DNA from: Saprospiraceae bacterium
GTDB lineage: Bacteria; Bacteroidota; Bacteroidia; Chitinophagales; Saprospiraceae
Assembly (NCBI GenBank): GCA_020630435.1
Contig: JAHDBJ010000001.1
Coordinates: forward strand, 186,001-250,000
Direction of reading: 5' to 3'
Length of the DNA: 64,000 nt
Under the pieces are notes generated by a model. That model ran no database searches and was not told the DNA's origin. It worked only from the letters and a program-made list of their open reading frames with translations. The translations under genes were made by a program, and so were the position numbers. Of this stretch, positions 19,949-49,110 are shown in pieces. The stretch's first letter is position 1. Each line of letters starts with the position of its first letter.

Positions 19949-21796
19949 TTAAACATTGTAAATACCATCAATAACATTACTGTATTTTTCAGAAATCACC
20001 CTACGTTTTAGTTTCAATGTAGGTGTCAATTCCCCTGTTGAAACATCCCAAGGTTCAGCTAACAGCTCAAACTTTTTAATTTGCTCGATATGGCTAAAAT
20101 TAGGATTAAAACCACTCACAATTTCTTGATACTTTGCTCGAACTTTTTCGTTTTGTAAGGTATCTTTTGAAATGGTGTAAAGATTCGGATTATAATCCGT
20201 TTGTGTAATTGTGCAATCTACACCATTCTCATCACACCAATCTTTAAGAGCAGGGGCTGCGGGTACAATTAAAGCAGAAACGAATTTATGTTTCTCTCCA
20301 ACCACCATCATCTGCTCTACGAGGAAGTCTTCTTTAAATTTATTTTCTATGGGGGCGGGAGCAACATACTTACCTCCAGAAGTTTTTAATAATTCTTTCT
20401 TTCTATCGGTTATTTTAAGAAACATCGTCCCATTAGCTCCTTCTATCATTTTTCCAACATCTCCTGTATAGAACCAACCATCTTTATCCATGACTTCCGC
20501 AGTTTTTTCAGGCTTGTTGTAATACCCTTTCATGATATTTGGTCCTTTTGCCAATATCTCTCCTTCTCCAGGTTTATAATTCCCATCCGAATCATCAATT
20601 TTTATCGTAACGCTTTTAAGTGGGGGGCCTACGGTACCCATCATGGCTCTATAAGGACCAAACTCATTTGCAGTAAGGGCAGGCGACGTTTCAGAGAGTC
20701 CATAGCCTTCTCGTATAGGAATTCCAGCAGCAGAAAAAATTCTTGCCATCTTAACAGGACAAGCGGCTGCCCCCGTAAAAATACCTTTGATATTTCCACC
20801 AAGCGCTTCTCTCCATTTGCTGAAGATTAACTTATCAGCGATTTTACGTTTAATTCCATCTAGACCACTATATTTTTTATCAAAATCATAGTCGTCTGTC
20901 AAACTTAATGCCCAGAAAAACAAGCTCTTTTTTACACCTGTCAATTCTAGCCCTTTGTTGTATATTTTTTCATAAACTTTTTCTAACAATCTAGGAACTG
21001 TTGTGAAAAAATGCGGTTTCATGGTTCTCAGATCACCTTCTTCTCCTCCTAGATTATCTGTTCCTGTATAGGTGATAGAAACACCAGAAGCAAAATAATT
21101 GTAAGAAACCGTACGCTCAAAAACATGGCAAAGCGGAAGGAAACTTAAAGCTGAATCTCCTGATTGTACTGGTATCAGGTGCATAACATCCTTGATGTTG
21201 CTAATTATATTTGTATGACTTAACATGACCCCTTTAGGATGCCCAGTTGTACCCGAAGTATAGATGAGCGTTGCCAAATCATCAGGTTTGATGGAGTCCA
21301 TAACTTTTTCTACTTCATCTAAACTACCACCTTCAAATAAGTCTTCCCAATAAGGCGCTTCAGCTGTTTTGTCAAATGTGTAAATCTTTTCTAGAGTAGG
21401 AACTTTATCCTTAATTTCACTTACCTTTTTTAATAAATCTCCTGGCCCGTCTAATCCTACAATACATATCTTAATTCCAGCATCATTAAAGATATACTCA
21501 TATTCTGCGGGACTAATGGTTGGATATACAGGGACATTGATGCCTCCAATTTGTTGGATTCCAAAATCCATAATATTCCATTCTGGTCGATTCTTGTAGG
21601 AAATAAGTGCTACTTTTTCACCAGGCTTGAGTCCTAGTTTTAATAGTCCTAGGCTAACATTATTAGCGAGGTCTATTACTTCTTGTGTGGAATAGTAGAT
21701 ATTTTTTCCGTCTACACGGTGTCCGACACATTTCTCCAAAGGATATTTGGTGTTTTGATACCTAATGATATCAAATAGTCTTGTGAAATCGTTCAT
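19949..21796 (-). CDS. Long-chain acyl-CoA synthetase (AMP-forming), copy 1
   Basis: A 615-residue ANL-superfamily enzyme that activates a long-chain fatty acid with ATP and CoA. The P-loop-like motif TLIYTSGTTGHPKG lies at about 176-189, the GYGLSETSP motif near 367-375, and the GWFYTGDVG hinge region near 443-451; the DRKKELLKTSGGKYVAP segment carries the A8/A10-type residues. It resembles the plant/eubacterial long-chain group (FAA1-like) that ends shortly after LKRR. The adjacent upstream gene is a clear paralogue, so the pair arose by duplication. Separate substrate preferences are likely but cannot be read from sequence. Confidence 0.93.
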   Translation of the reverse strand: MNDFTRLFDIIRYQNTKYPLEKCVGHRVDGKNIYYSTQEVIDLANNVSLGLLKLGLKPGEKVALISYKNRPEWNIMDFGIQQIGGINVPVYPTISPAEYEYIFNDAGIKICIVGLDGPGDLLKKVSEIKDKVPTLEKIYTFDKTAEAPYWEDLFEGGSLDEVEKVMDSIKPDDLATLIYTSGTTGHPKGVMLSHTNIISNIKDVMHLIPVQSGDSALSFLPLCHVFERTVSYNYFASGVSITYTGTDNLGGEEGDLRTMKPHFFTTVPRLLEKVYEKIYNKGLELTGVKKSLFFWALSLTDDYDFDKKYSGLDGIKRKIADKLIFSKWREALGGNIKGIFTGAAACPVKMARIFSAAGIPIREGYGLSETSPALTANEFGPYRAMMGTVGPPLKSVTIKIDDSDGNYKPGEGEILAKGPNIMKGYYNKPEKTAEVMDKDGWFYTGDVGKMIEGANGTMFLKITDRKKELLKTSGGKYVAPAPIENKFKEDFLVEQMMVVGEKHKFVSALIVPAAPALKDWCDENGVDCTITQTDYNPNLYTISKDTLQNEKVRAKYQEIVSGFNPNFSHIEQIKKFELLAEPWDVSTGELTPTLKLKRRVISEKYSNVIDGIYNV

Positions 21797-21962: not shown

Positions 21963-23762
21963 CTAGTTTTTCTTCTTTTTAGCAATCCCATACATTTCAT
22001 TAATTTCTCTTTCAAAATGTTCTAATACAATTCTCCTTCGTATTTTCATCGTTGGGGTTAACTCACCATTTTCTACAGACCATTCTTGATGAAGGAGGTG
22101 GAACTTTTTAACCTGTTCTGTTTTATTTAAACCTTTATTGATTTTAGCGACTTCTTCTTCCATAAAGGCAACAACCTTCGGATTGATTACCATATATTGA
22201 GGAGCTGTCCAATGGATATTATTTTCAATACACCACATCTCTAATTCGGGAAAGAAAGGAATAACTAAGGCTGAAACGAATTGGCGATTATTTCCAATAA
22301 CCATACACTGTTTAATATAAGGCGAGGAGCGTAAGGCATTCTCGACAGCTTGGGGAGCAACATATTTTCCTCCAGATGTTTTAAAGAGATCTTTTTTACG
22401 ATCTGTTATTTTTAAAAACCGTTTGTCTAAAAATGTTCCAATATCTCCTGTTTTAAACCAGCCATCTTCAAGCAGCACTTTTTGGGTCAAGTCTTCTCTT
22501 TTATAATATCCTTGCATGACATTAGGCCCTTTGACCATGATCTCACCTTCACCATTTTCATCAGGATTTTCGATTTTTACTTCTACGCCAGGGATGGGCA
22601 TTCCAACCGTTCCAAAGCGGACACCGCCTGGTTCAAAACGGTTAAAGGCGATCACAGGAGAGGTCTCGGTCAGTCCGTATCCTTCTCGAATATCAATACC
22701 TGCTGCTGTAAATAACCGACCCAGCTCTGGTTGTAGTGCTGCTGCTCCTACAACGACGCCTTCGATTCTTCCTCCTAGGGCTTTTCGCCATTTTCTATAA
22801 ATTAAAAAATCAGCAATTTTTAATTTGATGAAAAAAGGTAGCGACATTCTACCCGTGTCTTTATATTTTCTGCCTAGACCCAATGCCCAAAAGGATAATT
22901 TCTTAGCAACAACGTTGGCTTTCATACTCCGTTCAACAATATTTTCGTAAACCTTTTCAAGTAAACGGGGAACAGAAGTAAAAAAATGAGGTCGAATTTC
23001 TTGAAGATTATCGACAAGGGTATCGATTCGTTCGGCATAATAAATGGAAGCACCTACTGCTATATACGTAAAAACCACCATTCGTTCGAAGATATGGCTC
23101 ATGGGGAGAAAACTAAGGCAAACTTTATCGCAATTAATCGGTACTACAGCGATTGTTGCCTTGATATTACTTACGATATTTTTATGTGATAGCATTACAC
23201 CTTTAGGCTGACCAGTTGTTCCTGAAGTATAAATAATTGTAACTAAATCATCTTCATGGAGCATTGCTTTTAAACCTTCTAGTGTGGCAAGGTGCTTGGC
23301 TGTAGGTTCTTTTTTCCAATCGTCAATATTGGGGACATTCGTTAACTTTTCAATAGTGAAAATTTGTTCTAAAAAAGGCAGATTCTCTTCTAATCGTTTG
23401 ACTTTATCATATAAATCCTGATTAGAAACCAAACAATATTTTACTTCGGCATCCTGTAGGACAAAATGCATTACCTCATCGCTAACAGTAGGGTATATAG
23501 GAACTAGGACAACGCCAATTTGTTGTAGTCCTAAATCGAAAAAATTCCAATGGGAAGAACTGGTATGAGCAATAATAGCGACTTTATCTCCTTTATGTAA
23601 ACCAAGATCAATCGCCCCTGCACTTATTTTATTAACCTCCGATATACATTGTGTTGTATCAAATTTTTTCCATTCGATTCCCTCTTTATGAGCCAAAGCT
23701 ACTTTTTGCGGATACAGTTCATTTTGATAATGTAAAATATCGAAAACACGCTGAAAGTCCAT
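21963..23762 (-). CDS. Long-chain acyl-CoA synthetase (AMP-forming), copy 2
   Basis: A 599-residue paralogue of the downstream ligase with the same motif order: TIIYTSGTTGQPKG (about 173-186), GYGLTETSP (about 359-367), GWFKTGDIG and ITDRKKDLFKTSGGKYVAPQ. The two proteins share nearly every catalytic block but differ widely between them, so the duplication is old. It ends with a basic KKKK tail. A 166-bp gap separates the two genes, enough for the downstream gene to have its own promoter. Both act in fatty-acid uptake or recycling, by family. Confidence 0.93.
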   Translation of the reverse strand: MDFQRVFDILHYQNELYPQKVALAHKEGIEWKKFDTTQCISEVNKISAGAIDLGLHKGDKVAIIAHTSSSHWNFFDLGLQQIGVVLVPIYPTVSDEVMHFVLQDAEVKYCLVSNQDLYDKVKRLEENLPFLEQIFTIEKLTNVPNIDDWKKEPTAKHLATLEGLKAMLHEDDLVTIIYTSGTTGQPKGVMLSHKNIVSNIKATIAVVPINCDKVCLSFLPMSHIFERMVVFTYIAVGASIYYAERIDTLVDNLQEIRPHFFTSVPRLLEKVYENIVERSMKANVVAKKLSFWALGLGRKYKDTGRMSLPFFIKLKIADFLIYRKWRKALGGRIEGVVVGAAALQPELGRLFTAAGIDIREGYGLTETSPVIAFNRFEPGGVRFGTVGMPIPGVEVKIENPDENGEGEIMVKGPNVMQGYYKREDLTQKVLLEDGWFKTGDIGTFLDKRFLKITDRKKDLFKTSGGKYVAPQAVENALRSSPYIKQCMVIGNNRQFVSALVIPFFPELEMWCIENNIHWTAPQYMVINPKVVAFMEEEVAKINKGLNKTEQVKKFHLLHQEWSVENGELTPTMKIRRRIVLEHFEREINEMYGIAKKKKN

Positions 23763-37633: not shown

Positions 37634-39052
37634 CTAATATTCAAACTCCATTGTTTCACAAGGATAATTGAATAAAAATTTCTCTTTTACTAAAGTTGCT
37701 ACATATTCAGGTACCATTTTTTCCCATCCTTCTTCATTCTCTTGTATCATTCTAAGTACTTCGGTAGAATAAATATGAAGATAATCTTGTTCAAAACCTT
37801 CAACATCTACGACACTATTACTATCTAATAGGTATTTATAAATAAATTCAATCTCTTTGGGAATAGGTAGATTTTTAGTAGTCATTAATTCACCACTTCC
37901 TTCTTGGAATGCAGGATAAGCATACAATTTGACGTTTTTTCTAAATAACTCTCCGAAAGCAGAGAGTAAGCTATCATTTTGATTTTGAAAATATTTTTCA
38001 TTAATGATACTTAGTAATTCATTTACCCCTAGTCCAATCCCTAGCTTTTTGATTTTATAATCTTCAAAATATTTGAATAATTTGTGTCGATCTTCGCAAT
38101 TAGAAATCATTACAGTATATCCCATTTTGCCAAGGACAGCAGCACGGTCAAGAAAATCTTTTTCGTCTAAACCTCCTTTTTTAAGGTTATCTAAAGTAAT
38201 TTCTACTAAAAAGAACGTCTTTTTGGCTTCTACTTGTTCATCCTTTTTGAATTGCTCAAAACTTTTATTGAGCATATCTTGATTCACTAAGGTTGCGGGG
38301 CGATAGCTTCCTCTAACAACCATTAGGTGTTTTTTATATAAAAATTCTGAGGAATGAATATTTTTTCCTTCTGCATTAAACATGGCTACATCACACATAT
38401 TATGTTTGACCAACCATAAACTAAGTAGTCTATTATCTAAACTTTTGAAGTCAGGACCAGAAAGTCTCAACATATCAATATTTAATCTTCCATGCAAATG
38501 ATCCATTAAAGATTGCACAAGGATTTCGGGGTCATTATGGTAGTGAAAGCAAGCGTAAACAAGATTTACACCAAGTATTCCAATAGCTTGTTGTTGTAGA
38601 CCATTATCGTTATCCTGCATATTTACATGAAGTACAATTTCATTTGCTTCTCTATTAGGGTATAACTGAAAGCGAAGCCCTAACCAACCATGTCCTTTAA
38701 TGGTTTTTTGGTAATTGATAGCCGCAACAGTATCGGCAAAAACGAAAAAATTTGTCTCTGGTTTTTCATGTCGTAGTCTTGAAAGCATTAGACCATACTC
38801 ATGATCCAACATTTTATAAACTCTAGATTCACATACATACCTTCCACTAGCTTCTGTACCATATATTTTGTCAGAATATACTTTATCATATGCCGACATT
38901 GTTTTTGCAATTGTTCCAGCAGCAGCTCCTACTTGAAAGAAATAACGAGCGACTTCTTGTCCTGCACCAATTTCAGAAAAAGTACCATATATCTTATCAT
39001 TTAGGTTGATTTCAAGGGCTTTTTGTTCTGTTTCTAAGGCTTGCCGTCGCAT
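37634..39052 (-). CDS. Conserved protein of unknown function (472 aa)
   Basis: The protein is well organised but I cannot assign a reaction. It opens with EIGAGQEVARYFFQVGAAAG (about 27-46), a glycine-rich motif that recalls a nucleotide or cofactor loop. It also has IAKTMSAYDKVYSDKIYG and LSRLRHEKPETNFFVFADT (about 94-112), conserved-looking blocks. There are no membrane segments and no signal peptide, so it is cytoplasmic. I recall similar proteins across Bacteroidota and cyanobacteria, sometimes labelled nicotinate-nucleotide adenylyltransferase, but no HxGH motif is present here, so that label looks wrong. The start is ATG at 39052. Confidence 0.8.
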   Translation of the reverse strand: MRRQALETEQKALEINLNDKIYGTFSEIGAGQEVARYFFQVGAAAGTIAKTMSAYDKVYSDKIYGTEASGRYVCESRVYKMLDHEYGLMLSRLRHEKPETNFFVFADTVAAINYQKTIKGHGWLGLRFQLYPNREANEIVLHVNMQDNDNGLQQQAIGILGVNLVYACFHYHNDPEILVQSLMDHLHGRLNIDMLRLSGPDFKSLDNRLLSLWLVKHNMCDVAMFNAEGKNIHSSEFLYKKHLMVVRGSYRPATLVNQDMLNKSFEQFKKDEQVEAKKTFFLVEITLDNLKKGGLDEKDFLDRAAVLGKMGYTVMISNCEDRHKLFKYFEDYKIKKLGIGLGVNELLSIINEKYFQNQNDSLLSAFGELFRKNVKLYAYPAFQEGSGELMTTKNLPIPKEIEFIYKYLLDSNSVVDVEGFEQDYLHIYSTEVLRMIQENEEGWEKMVPEYVATLVKEKFLFNYPCETMEFEY

Positions 39053-39197
39053 ATTTTAATTTTTATTATTGACTGTTGTAAAATTAGGGAAAATTATTCT
39101 TATGGAGTGTTTGTTTTTTAGGCTTAATAAATATGATTGTTATTACTTTGTCTTTGGTGAAACGTAAAAACAGGCATTAAGTTGAAGAAATATACAG

Positions 39198-39360
39198 TGA
39201 AGTCGTTTAAAAAAGCTGATGAATTATTTACAAGTCATGGTATCTCAATATTTCAGCTAATTCTTTTCACCGTAGTGAAGGTTACAAAAAAAGAATGGAA
39301 CTTTATCGTGAAATACAAGTACATAGAACTAAAATCAGCCTTCATCATTGAATAACTTCA
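39198..39360. repeat. Dispersed intergenic palindromic repeat, copy 1
   Basis: 163 bp bounded by TGAAGT and its complement ACTTCA. The second half is an imperfect reverse complement of the first, so the element can fold into one long hairpin with the tip near 39272-39285. Copy 2 at 48891-49058 matches almost throughout, for example at GATGAATTATTTACAAGTCA and TATCTCAATATTTCAGCT. It encodes no protein. It lies in the 480-bp gap before the ADP-ribosylglycohydrolase gene. Confidence 0.85.
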
Positions 39361-39399
39361 GTTAAAAAATTATGTTATTTTAAAAAAGTGTATAATTTA

Positions 39400-39532: not shown

Positions 39533-40492
39533 ATGATGTCTAATAAAATTAAGGATGCCTTGTTTGGGATTGCTGTTGGTGATGCTATTGGTGTCCCTTA
39601 TGAATTTCTTTCTAGAAATCAAATGCAAAAAAATCCAGCTATTGGTATGATTGGTTATGGTACACACAACCAACCAGAGGGCACGTGGTCAGATGATAGT
39701 TCTTTGATGTTCTGTCTAGCAGAATCCTTAGCTAGAGGATATGATTTAGCGGATATAAGTAGAAAATTTGTTGCTTGGAAATATACAGGTTATTGGACAC
39801 CTTGGGGCAAAGTCTTTGATATAGGAATCACAACTTCAAAAGCGATTGCTCGTTTAAAAGAAATATTGGATTCTAAGGATTATAATCGTTTGAAATTGTT
39901 AAAACTTCATGATGATGAATATGAGAATGGGAATGGTTCTTTAATGCGTATTTTACCACTTCTTTTCTATATCAAGGGAAAAAATATTCAAGCACAATTT
40001 GATATAATATGGGAAGTATCGGCTTTGACCCATCGGCATATTCGTTCAGCAATGTGTTGCTTGATATATTTAAGAGTAGCAGAACATTTACTTAATGGGT
40101 ACGATAAAGTTATCGCCTATCAAAATATGCGGAAAGAAATTTTTGATTTTTGGTCAGTTATTAAGTTTTCAGAAAAAGAACAAAAACATTTTTACAAAAT
40201 TATTCAGAAAGACATCAGGGATACACCTATTAAAGAAATTAAAACAGGCGGATATGTAATGGAGTCAATAGAGGCTTGTTTGTGGTTCTTTTTAAATGAA
40301 AACGACTACGAACATACGATTCTTTCTATCATTAACCTAGGACATGATACAGATACTTCTGCAGCTATAGTTGGAGGTTTGGCAGGCATCTATTACGGTA
40401 GTGAAGGAATACCTCAACAATGGATTGATACCCTAGCTCGATTAGAGGATATTTTAGAGCTAATCGCTCAACTAAACGATAGTTATACCTAA
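39533..40492 (+). CDS. ADP-ribosylglycohydrolase family protein (DraG-like)
   Basis: A 319-residue all-helical hydrolase that removes ADP-ribose from proteins or small molecules. The di-metal ligands are conserved: the N-terminal GDAIGVPYEF (16-25), TWSDDS (51-56) with both acids, and the C-terminal HDTDTS (271-276). The family covers DraG, ARH1/ARH3 and ADP-ribosyl-sugar hydrolases, so the substrate is open. It is followed 50 bp downstream by a HELGH-protein gene on the same strand, probably in one operon, and preceded by a palindrome and a dispersed repeat. No ADP-ribosyltransferase gene is visible nearby. Confidence 0.92.
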   Translation: MMSNKIKDALFGIAVGDAIGVPYEFLSRNQMQKNPAIGMIGYGTHNQPEGTWSDDSSLMFCLAESLARGYDLADISRKFVAWKYTGYWTPWGKVFDIGITTSKAIARLKEILDSKDYNRLKLLKLHDDEYENGNGSLMRILPLLFYIKGKNIQAQFDIIWEVSALTHRHIRSAMCCLIYLRVAEHLLNGYDKVIAYQNMRKEIFDFWSVIKFSEKEQKHFYKIIQKDIRDTPIKEIKTGGYVMESIEACLWFFLNENDYEHTILSIINLGHDTDTSAAIVGGLAGIYYGSEGIPQQWIDTLARLEDILELIAQLNDSYT

Positions 40493-48621: not shown

Positions 48622-48890
48622 AGAAAATGTATTTTTTTAATGAATAAAGGATTTTGAATACAAATTATGTAAATAATCGGAAAGTATTAGCATAAATAAA
48701 CAAGGAACTGTTTATAACATATAATTTCAATTTTTTGGGTGTTCAATGTTTTTAAAATCGATTCATAAGGTTACAATGTTAATGTTGAACATATAAACAC
48801 GTAGTACATACGATAATTTTTCTAGAAAAAAAATCTGTTGTTAGAACTTATGGAGAGGTATAATATTAACCTCGAAAGAGATTACTTATA
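48622..48890. other. Intergenic region before repeat copy 2
   Basis: AT-rich, about 270 bp, holding the promoter of prmC and possibly part of that of the beta-helix gene. I see no open reading frame, RNA gene or strong hairpin in it. Confidence 0.4.
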
Positions 48891-49058
48891 GAAGTTTTTT
48901 AAAAATAGAATGATGAATTATTTACAAGTCATTGTATCTCAATATTTCAGCTGATTCTTTTCACCGTACGTAGCTAAGGCTACGAAAAAAGAATGGAGTT
49001 TTATCTTGAAATACAAGCACTTATAATTAAAATCAACCTTCATTATTAAACAACTTCA
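48891..49058. repeat. Dispersed intergenic palindromic repeat, copy 2
   Basis: 168 bp from GAAGTTTTTT to CAACTTCA. It is highly similar to copy 1 (39198-39360). The tip of the fold is better preserved here: CGTAGC-TAAG-GCTACG at about 48968-48983, flanked by TTCTTTT and AAAAAAGAA. Ends are imperfect terminal inverted repeats of the form GAAGTTnTTTAAnnnTGA. It lies 52 bp before the start of the beta-helix protein gene. Confidence 0.85.
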
Positions 49059-49110
49059 TAGTATCCCTATAAGCTGATATAAATTTTTTTTAAATAAAAA
49101 TAGAAATATT

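Follow-up and report, generated by a model that had tools for sequence, protein, structure and literature searches.

A probably IS5-type miniature transposable element of Bacteroidota with a hairpin conserved on one strand

Miniature transposable elements (MITEs) are usually defined by their ends, and their middles are thought to be free to vary. Among the described systems that lie closest to the repeat analysed here, the IS5-type MITEs of Porphyromonas gingivalis (BrickBuilt, MITE239, MITE464 and MITE700) likewise belong to the Bacteroidota, share their ends with IS5 elements and form intergenic palindromic structures (PMC4596501). MITECca01 of Cardinium is also a Bacteroidota MITE, present in 169 copies and maintained by its parental IS (PMC9769881), and MITEAba12 is spread family-wide with a near-fixed length of 113 bp (PMC6382973). 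ERIC and Correia elements are widespread palindromic mobile repeats of 100-170 bp whose hairpin transcripts are cut by RNases; PMC10969869 reports that transcripts of Correia and ERIC elements are affected by RNase III or RNase E, and that QMITEs give rise to sRNAs. The repeat described here lies in a stretch of 64,000 nucleotides from a Saprospiraceae bacterium (the window, the whole of the DNA that was analysed), where a preliminary description had reported two copies of a non-coding palindromic repeat of about 163 bp. We consider it reasonably probable, from sequence comparison, that this is an IS5-type MITE, non-autonomous and carrying a conserved hairpin as cargo.

The repeat in the window and its copies

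Both copies are present and in the same orientation, the first bounded by GAAG...CTTC with AGT on either side and the second flanked by ATA. The features, assigned from their sequence, are as follows.

39199-39359, minus strand (the strand of the conserved hairpin): MITE copy 1, GAAG...CTTC, 161 bp, with ends set by pattern and covered by covariance model R1
39196-39198, no strand: target-site duplication AGT, left of copy 1, from the flank sequence
39360-39362, no strand: target-site duplication AGT, right of copy 1, from the flank sequence
39199-39210, plus strand: left terminal inverted repeat of copy 1, GAAGTCGTTTAA
39348-39359, minus strand: right terminal inverted repeat of copy 1, GAAGTTATTCAA as read on minus
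39270-39286, minus strand: apical core of the hairpin, degenerate in copy 1, CCGTAGTGAAGGTTACA on plus
48891-49057, minus strand: MITE copy 2, 167 bp, with a 4-bp insertion near the apex, covered by model R1
48888-48890, no strand: target-site duplication ATA, left of copy 2 (locus L016)
49058-49060, no strand: target-site duplication ATA, right of copy 2 (L016)

That the halves are imperfect reverse complements of each other also held up, with an arm-to-arm identity of 0.59 in copy 1, compared with 0.52 for shuffled arms and a mean of 0.70 over the 37 full-length copies of the genome. Model R1 scores copy 1 at 85 bits on the minus strand vs 15 bits on plus, and copy 2 at 126 vs 48 bits; on its plus strand copy 1 folds no better than shuffles (z -0.68; z -6.0 for a consensus-like copy). 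Copy 1 is decayed. The repeat is non-coding as reported, since none of the 41 copies in the window genome lies within an ORF of at least 90 aa, and a coding reading was dropped because the 42 elements compared below hold only short ORFs (median of the longest closed ORF 30 aa on the hairpin strand and 23 aa on the other). At 161-167 bp and without a transposase gene, the window copies fall below the 500 bp that delimit MITEs, and they carry the terminal inverted repeat GAAGYTGTTTAA at both ends. Copy 1 is adjoined by an ADP-ribosylglycohydrolase gene (39533-40492, plus strand, PF03747), from which a 472-aa gene without a Pfam match (37634-39052, minus strand) diverges. Elsewhere in the window, a 67-bp direct repeat, 81% alike, occupies 20357-20423 and 22353-22419 at a spacing of about 2 kb.

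BLASTN, with 40 of 126 initial candidates scored, gave at least 41 matches across the window genome, the others being 79-89% identical to copy 1, which disposes of a local duplication as the source of the similarity; some of the 37 full-length copies are identical to each other (up to 100%). With the ends set at GAAG/CTTC by pattern, the target-site duplications that had been proposed as a check were found: flanking words are identical at 3 bp in 33 of the 41 copies (shuffled mean 3.4, maximum 11 in 10,000), compared with 10 copies at 1 bp, 4 at 2 bp and 1 at 4 bp. A 3-bp repeat likewise flanks 42 of 64 elements with complete flanks in named genomes of other Bacteroidota, and 25 of 40 loci of relatives, where misplaced ends were scored as failures. 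Terminal-repeat patterns are in excess (1202 vs 764 in the reversed control), and one copy is nested in another, damaged copy, with AAT duplicated and the uninterrupted site visible in other copies. These sequence features identify the repeat as a miniature transposable element and not as a local duplication.

Short derivatives of 37-82 bp that keep both ends also occur in the window genome (L053-L060, on contigs C58, C18, C9, C49, C55, C21 and C44 of G000); L055, L056, L057, L058 and L059 have 3-bp duplications of their own, and L054 and L060 do not. They could be micro-MITEs, but deletion in place is preferred, since both arms contain AATAAT repeats and the 42-bp form seems to show the junction that these would leave. 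In a tally of gene context for which 40 of the 41 own copies and 49 of 66 other elements were usable, and in which intergenic lengths are uncorrected, 32 elements lie between divergent genes and 7 between convergent ones. Next to tandem neighbours, the two orientations of the same elements are about equally frequent (24 vs 26), so that an orientation effect relative to neighbour genes was rejected; a cis effect on mRNA would predict such a bias, and the counts speak against it.

A hairpin conserved across lineages

Single-sequence folding of 26 elements from 20 genomes returned the same full-length hairpin in 25, the exception being L194, which is truncated (154 bp) and folds differently. These 26 are the rows of alignment A2, which was made without structure and comprises L005, L022 and 24 relative loci (from a source of 40, L167, L182 and L185, whose ends were unclear, were set aside and 24 of the other 37 were used). 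Across 44 interior pairs, A2 contains 110 cells in which both bases have changed and pairing is kept, compared with 36.3 after shuffling (0/500 as high) and at most 40 when the pairing was slid. Alignment A3 combines 25 of the 26 A2 rows (L194 excluded) with 17 of the 18 distinct rows of a further set (L199 repeats L159); its 42 elements hold 349 such cells, vs 106.8 when shuffled and at most 125 when slid, and its covariation score is 0.413 vs controls of at most 0.123. The fold, on whose conservation the preliminary description had made its reading depend, is thus conserved between lineages. The structures were derived from the same sequences, so that paired percentages are biased towards them, and the evidence lies in the both-changed counts with their slid controls. 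The interior count is the safer one because outer pairs could covary through one transposase reading both ends. RNAalifold alone finds 32 pairs in A2 and 14 in the single-genome alignment A1, the latter with almost no covariation, as expected because those copies are recent. One internal loop is asymmetric, reading 5'-GA-3'/5'-GAA-3' on the minus strand, and varies little across A2 and A3; internal loops stand at fixed places among the elements. Comparison shows that the interior of the element is a hairpin of about 163 nt, which compensatory changes have preserved in different Bacteroidota lineages with near-fixed length and internal loops.

Within Saprospiraceae, with four candidates scored per genome, a match was found in at least 36 of 199 sampled genomes and 29 of 112 genera, the window genome included. 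A degenerate core pattern matched at least 118 stretches in genomes of named species, and among the 80 matches listed are Saprospiraceae, Draconibacterium and other Prolixibacteraceae, Saccharicrinis, other Bacteroidales/Bacteroidetes and one MAG labelled Chlorobiota. The cultured Saccharicrinis aurantiacus HQYD1 accounts for 7 core matches, spread over 6 of the listed stretches. From 82 core matches in named genomes, 16 without recognisable ends were set aside, leaving 66 elements with both ends, 41 of them 163 bp and 14 of them 164 bp long (55/66 at 163-164 bp). The covariance model, with 7 candidates scored, matched at least 7 of 395 genomes of the phylum, including 4 from another family (f25) of the class. 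No match was obtained among plasmids with the window copy, among genome contigs with an exact 31-mer (the degenerate core pattern was used instead) or among viral contigs with two core patterns. Rfam returned only a tRNA at gathering score for the window, no match for five named-genome loci and, for eight relatives, five matches at E up to 0.5 that all stay below the gathering score.

The two strands of the element are not equivalent. Read in the window's plus orientation, A2 contains 112 A.C and 38 G.U cells, with A.C ahead in 30 pair columns and G.U in 9; since A.C on the plus strand is G.U on the opposite strand, G.U is the favoured mismatch on the minus strand of the window. The minus strand is the more stable in 25 of the 26 elements of A2, the reversed one being L194, and in 18/18 and 16/17 elements of further sets; in the analysis behind the latter, two loci of G087, L323 and L328, gave no clean ends. 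Its advantage over the 26 elements averages 17.6 kcal/mol, where composition predicts 7.0 (sd 3.5), and the fold z-score is lower on the minus strand in 23 of 26. Along the tree, again in plus orientation, Watson-Crick pairs changed 64 times to A.C and 32 times to G.U (a single parsimony reconstruction). When folds are computed with G.U disallowed, and so favour neither strand, the minus strand has 88 G.U, 18 A.C and 94 other single mismatches, and 32 of the 42 elements lean to G.U and 1 to A.C. Rare variants inside the window genome are near-equal (A.C 24, G.U 20), which is what decay free of selection would give; after insertion, a single copy seems to accumulate mutations neutrally, and selection seems to act on the copies that propagate. 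As in conserved structured RNAs, compensatory changes across lineages are joined by a strand preference for G.U over A.C mismatches. Three readings had been offered for the repeat at the outset. The MITE-like element, with its terminal inverted repeats, 3-bp target duplications and an IS with matching ends, and the structured RNA, in the form of a structured-RNA-like hairpin with strand-specific compensatory changes across genera, appear to apply jointly, whereas a REP/BIME-type structure, a palindrome of 20-40 bp that lacks both IS-type ends and target duplications, is not supported for a unit as long as about 163 bp that has both, its duplications being of 3 bp.

The presumed mobiliser and other ends

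A remnant of a PF13340 transposase lies at 11541-11663 of contig C66 in the window genome (G000), adjoining the end GAAATTGTTTAAAAAGTC. Contigs C57 and C15 start with the same 55 bp, ending in the IS end of the remnant (GAAGTTGTTTAAAAAGTC read outwards), and this shared start suggests a multi-copy IS5-type element that is missing from the assembly. Contig C23 terminates 52 bp into sequence beginning GAAGTTGTTTAAAAATGATTTG, so that contigs break at IS ends at C57:1-55, C15:1-55 and the end of C23 (L047, L086, L043). The MITE part preceding the C23 sequence and the one with which C57 opens share an overlap of TAT, which seems to be what is expected for one IS copy inserted in one MITE. For the parental transposase with the same ends that the preliminary description had called for, the candidates in the window genome are the remnant and the contig-end pieces; no intact transposase gene of this IS5 type was found in its assembly.

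Genome G036, of the same family, has an intact 941-bp element with a 269-aa transposase of the IS5 family (NCBIfam NF033580, 133 bits at a cut-off of 110; PF13340, PF13359 and PF01609 above cut-off). At its right end, GAGGCTGTTTAAAAATGATTTG, it is similar to the C23 sequence; at its left end, GAGGCTGTTCAAAAATAGAATG, 20 of 22 positions agree with the MITE end GAAGCTGTTTAAAAATAGAATG. Relatives carried by named plasmids include ISBf6 of Bacteroides fragilis, at 49.6% identity, and, at 63.4%, an IS5 element of Bernardetia. MITE ends GAAGTGATTTAA (L186, L192) resemble those of ISBf6, MITE ends GAACTTGTTTAA (L211, L222) resemble those of the Bernardetia IS, and in G354 a MITE (L321) and an IS5 element (L374) both start GAAGTGATTTAAACTTTTT. 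The ends of the ISBf6-like IS5 elements (GAAGTGATTTAAACTT in B. fragilis, L141; GAACTTGTTTAAG in Bernardetia, L140; GAGGCTGTTTAAAAA in G036, L126; and that of L374 in G354) are thus like variants of the MITE end, but these elements, unlike the MITE, are autonomous, 927-950 bp long and equipped with a transposase gene. From such ends we infer that an IS5 transposase mobilises the MITE in trans, and an ISBf6-like IS5 element is probably what moves it. The 53-aa remnant query matched 8 of 148 relatives, compared with at least 36 of 199 for the MITE, which argues against a simple one-to-one link between IS and MITE.

A similar apical core was also found with other ends. Among 395 genomes of the class, 26 contain the pattern GCATAGCN{3,4}GCTACGG; the counts are 47 in G087, 35 in G879, 15 in G354 and five apiece in G000 and G759, and the reversed control never exceeds 3 in a genome. 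Fourteen of 30 core loci were examined; 11 of them are hairpin elements of 159-177 bp with the core at their apex, and 3 are not. The fold on the core strand is better in 10 of the 11 hairpins and slightly worse than on the other strand in L339; their single mismatches are 20 G.U and 11 A.C, a count in which the pattern itself forces one apical A.C each. Both GAAG and TACC ends carry the core in several elements (TACC-like ends in L334, L335, L337, L339, L345 and L362), and three more end types, CCAGTGGTTCAATTC, TATACTCAAGACAC and TATGAAATAGTCC, were seen once each among the core-pattern hairpins. TACC-like hairpins of about 160 bp are L337 and L362 (G879), L339 and L318 (G087), L335, L334 and L345, and the core is high-copy in G087 and G879; several of these hairpins have 3-bp TAA/TTA duplications, which are not independent evidence where the choice of ends gave extra weight to a 3-bp repeat, as was done in the set of 17 elements above, for the core-pattern elements and for G354. 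The window genome holds a second hairpin family with GAAGTTGTTCAATAATTG ends, core GCATAGCCGAGCTACGG and arms unlike those of the window family. Its core has five matches, L338 and L363 (G000:C40:20616 and C47:26221), C55:85446, C58:43584 and C59:31536, and one of the two loci examined (L338, L363) has a 3-bp duplication.

Of all the results, this recurrence of a similar core (11 of the 14 loci examined, several of which have other ends) has the least replication, and it may reflect shared descent or a likeness of the apex only. Tentatively, there could be a mobile RNA or single-strand cargo of Bacteroidota, a hairpin some 160 nt long and selected on one of its strands, whose core CRTAGC-NNNN-GCTACGG and length are kept on different transposon ends, the hairpin being needed at each propagation, whichever the transposase.

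What the hairpin would do, and how it compares

With moderate confidence, we infer that selection acts on a single-stranded hairpin, RNA being its most likely form, in the propagating copies. Our proposal for its exact role is put forward with low confidence. A source copy would be read through from neighbouring promoters; read-through would be needed because there is no promoter motif on the hairpin strand, a Bacteroidota-type motif having been found on the minus strand in 0/42 elements. The motif concerned, TAnnTTTG, is that of Bacteroidota-type promoters, and on the plus strand it occurs in 11/42 elements (shuffled 4.8), partly within the apical core, and together with an upstream TTG in 6/42 (shuffled 0.35), so that transcription of the plus strand is possible. 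The folded transcript would shield or process the joint transcript, or bind a host double-strand-RNA protein. Insertions with a good hairpin would thereby be tolerated and would become the next source copies, although this last step is the least certain of all and must be called doubtful. A terminator reading was rejected, there being no T run after the apical stem.

The palindrome might instead be a by-product of the origin of an ordinary IS5-derived MITE, with template switching or conversion between the arms during replication maintaining their likeness and no selection on one strand. Quasi-palindromes are corrected by template switching, and mobility, IS5 ends and the near-equal decay within the genome (A.C 24, G.U 20) are all what such an element would exhibit. 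However, conversion acts on double-stranded DNA and is therefore blind to strand, yet the mismatches on one strand stand at G.U 88 vs A.C 18; moreover, the internal loops persist at fixed places instead of being erased, and length is held at 163-164 bp in 55/66 elements. We consider this explanation unlikely. The strand asymmetry itself would equally arise if the selected form were a hairpin of one DNA strand, exposed during transposition or replication and recognised by the transposase or a host factor, since G.T is more stable and more tolerable than A.C in DNA too. Selection that seems to act on propagating copies and a similar core with different ends would suit such a hairpin as well. Yet terminal inverted repeats with 3-bp duplications fit double-stranded cut-and-paste, which is established for IS5-type elements, and the derivatives of 37-82 bp with duplications of their own would need no hairpin if they transposed as such. 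In the closed genome G354 (one contig), 13 of 15 core matches are on the plus strand, but hairpin-strand copies on plus occur in both skew halves, as judged from a sparse sample of 20 stretches of 20 kb with sign changes near 1.7 and 3.8 Mb, and the covariance model finds minus copies as well; a replication-strand reading was rejected on these grounds, and a DNA hairpin is in our judgement rather improbable.

Far less credible is a domesticated family of small RNA genes that act in trans for the host and are mobile incidentally. It would account for the conserved strand-specific structure and has a precedent in the sRNAs from QMITEs in Coxiella (PMC10969869), but the rare variants within the genome are unbiased towards keeping pairs, matches were found in 36 of 199 relatives and not in the other 163 with four candidates scored per genome, which makes the 36 a lower bound, the hairpin strand has no promoter motif, and no Rfam family matched.

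The non-autonomous IS5-type MITE with a hairpin cargo, which is the reading we prefer, appears to be a MITE not described before, as far as the literature searched extends: no published description of it was found in a search of papers available without subscription, nor is it described in the parts of PMC9769881, PMC4596501, PMC6382973, PMC10969869 and PMC2864571 that were covered. The P. gingivalis MITEs have other end sequences and are described within Porphyromonas, BrickBuilt contains a tandem repeat and has flanking duplications that vary in length, and the portion of PMC4596501 covered here describes no strand-specific conservation of a hairpin across genera. MITECca01 differs in its IS982 parent and belongs to one lineage (PMC9769881). 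MITEAba12 has 9-bp duplications and a variable centre, and its energies are similar in both orientations (-24 and -27 kcal/mol; PMC6382973). ERIC and Correia elements occur in other phyla with other ends, a distinction drawn from how they are described. The covariance model now supplied describes a repeat outside every Rfam family, whose middle is kept across much of the phylum, on one strand and at near-fixed length, apparently even with differing ends; the long persistence of palindromic repeats such as ERIC, an old question, is thereby made directly testable.
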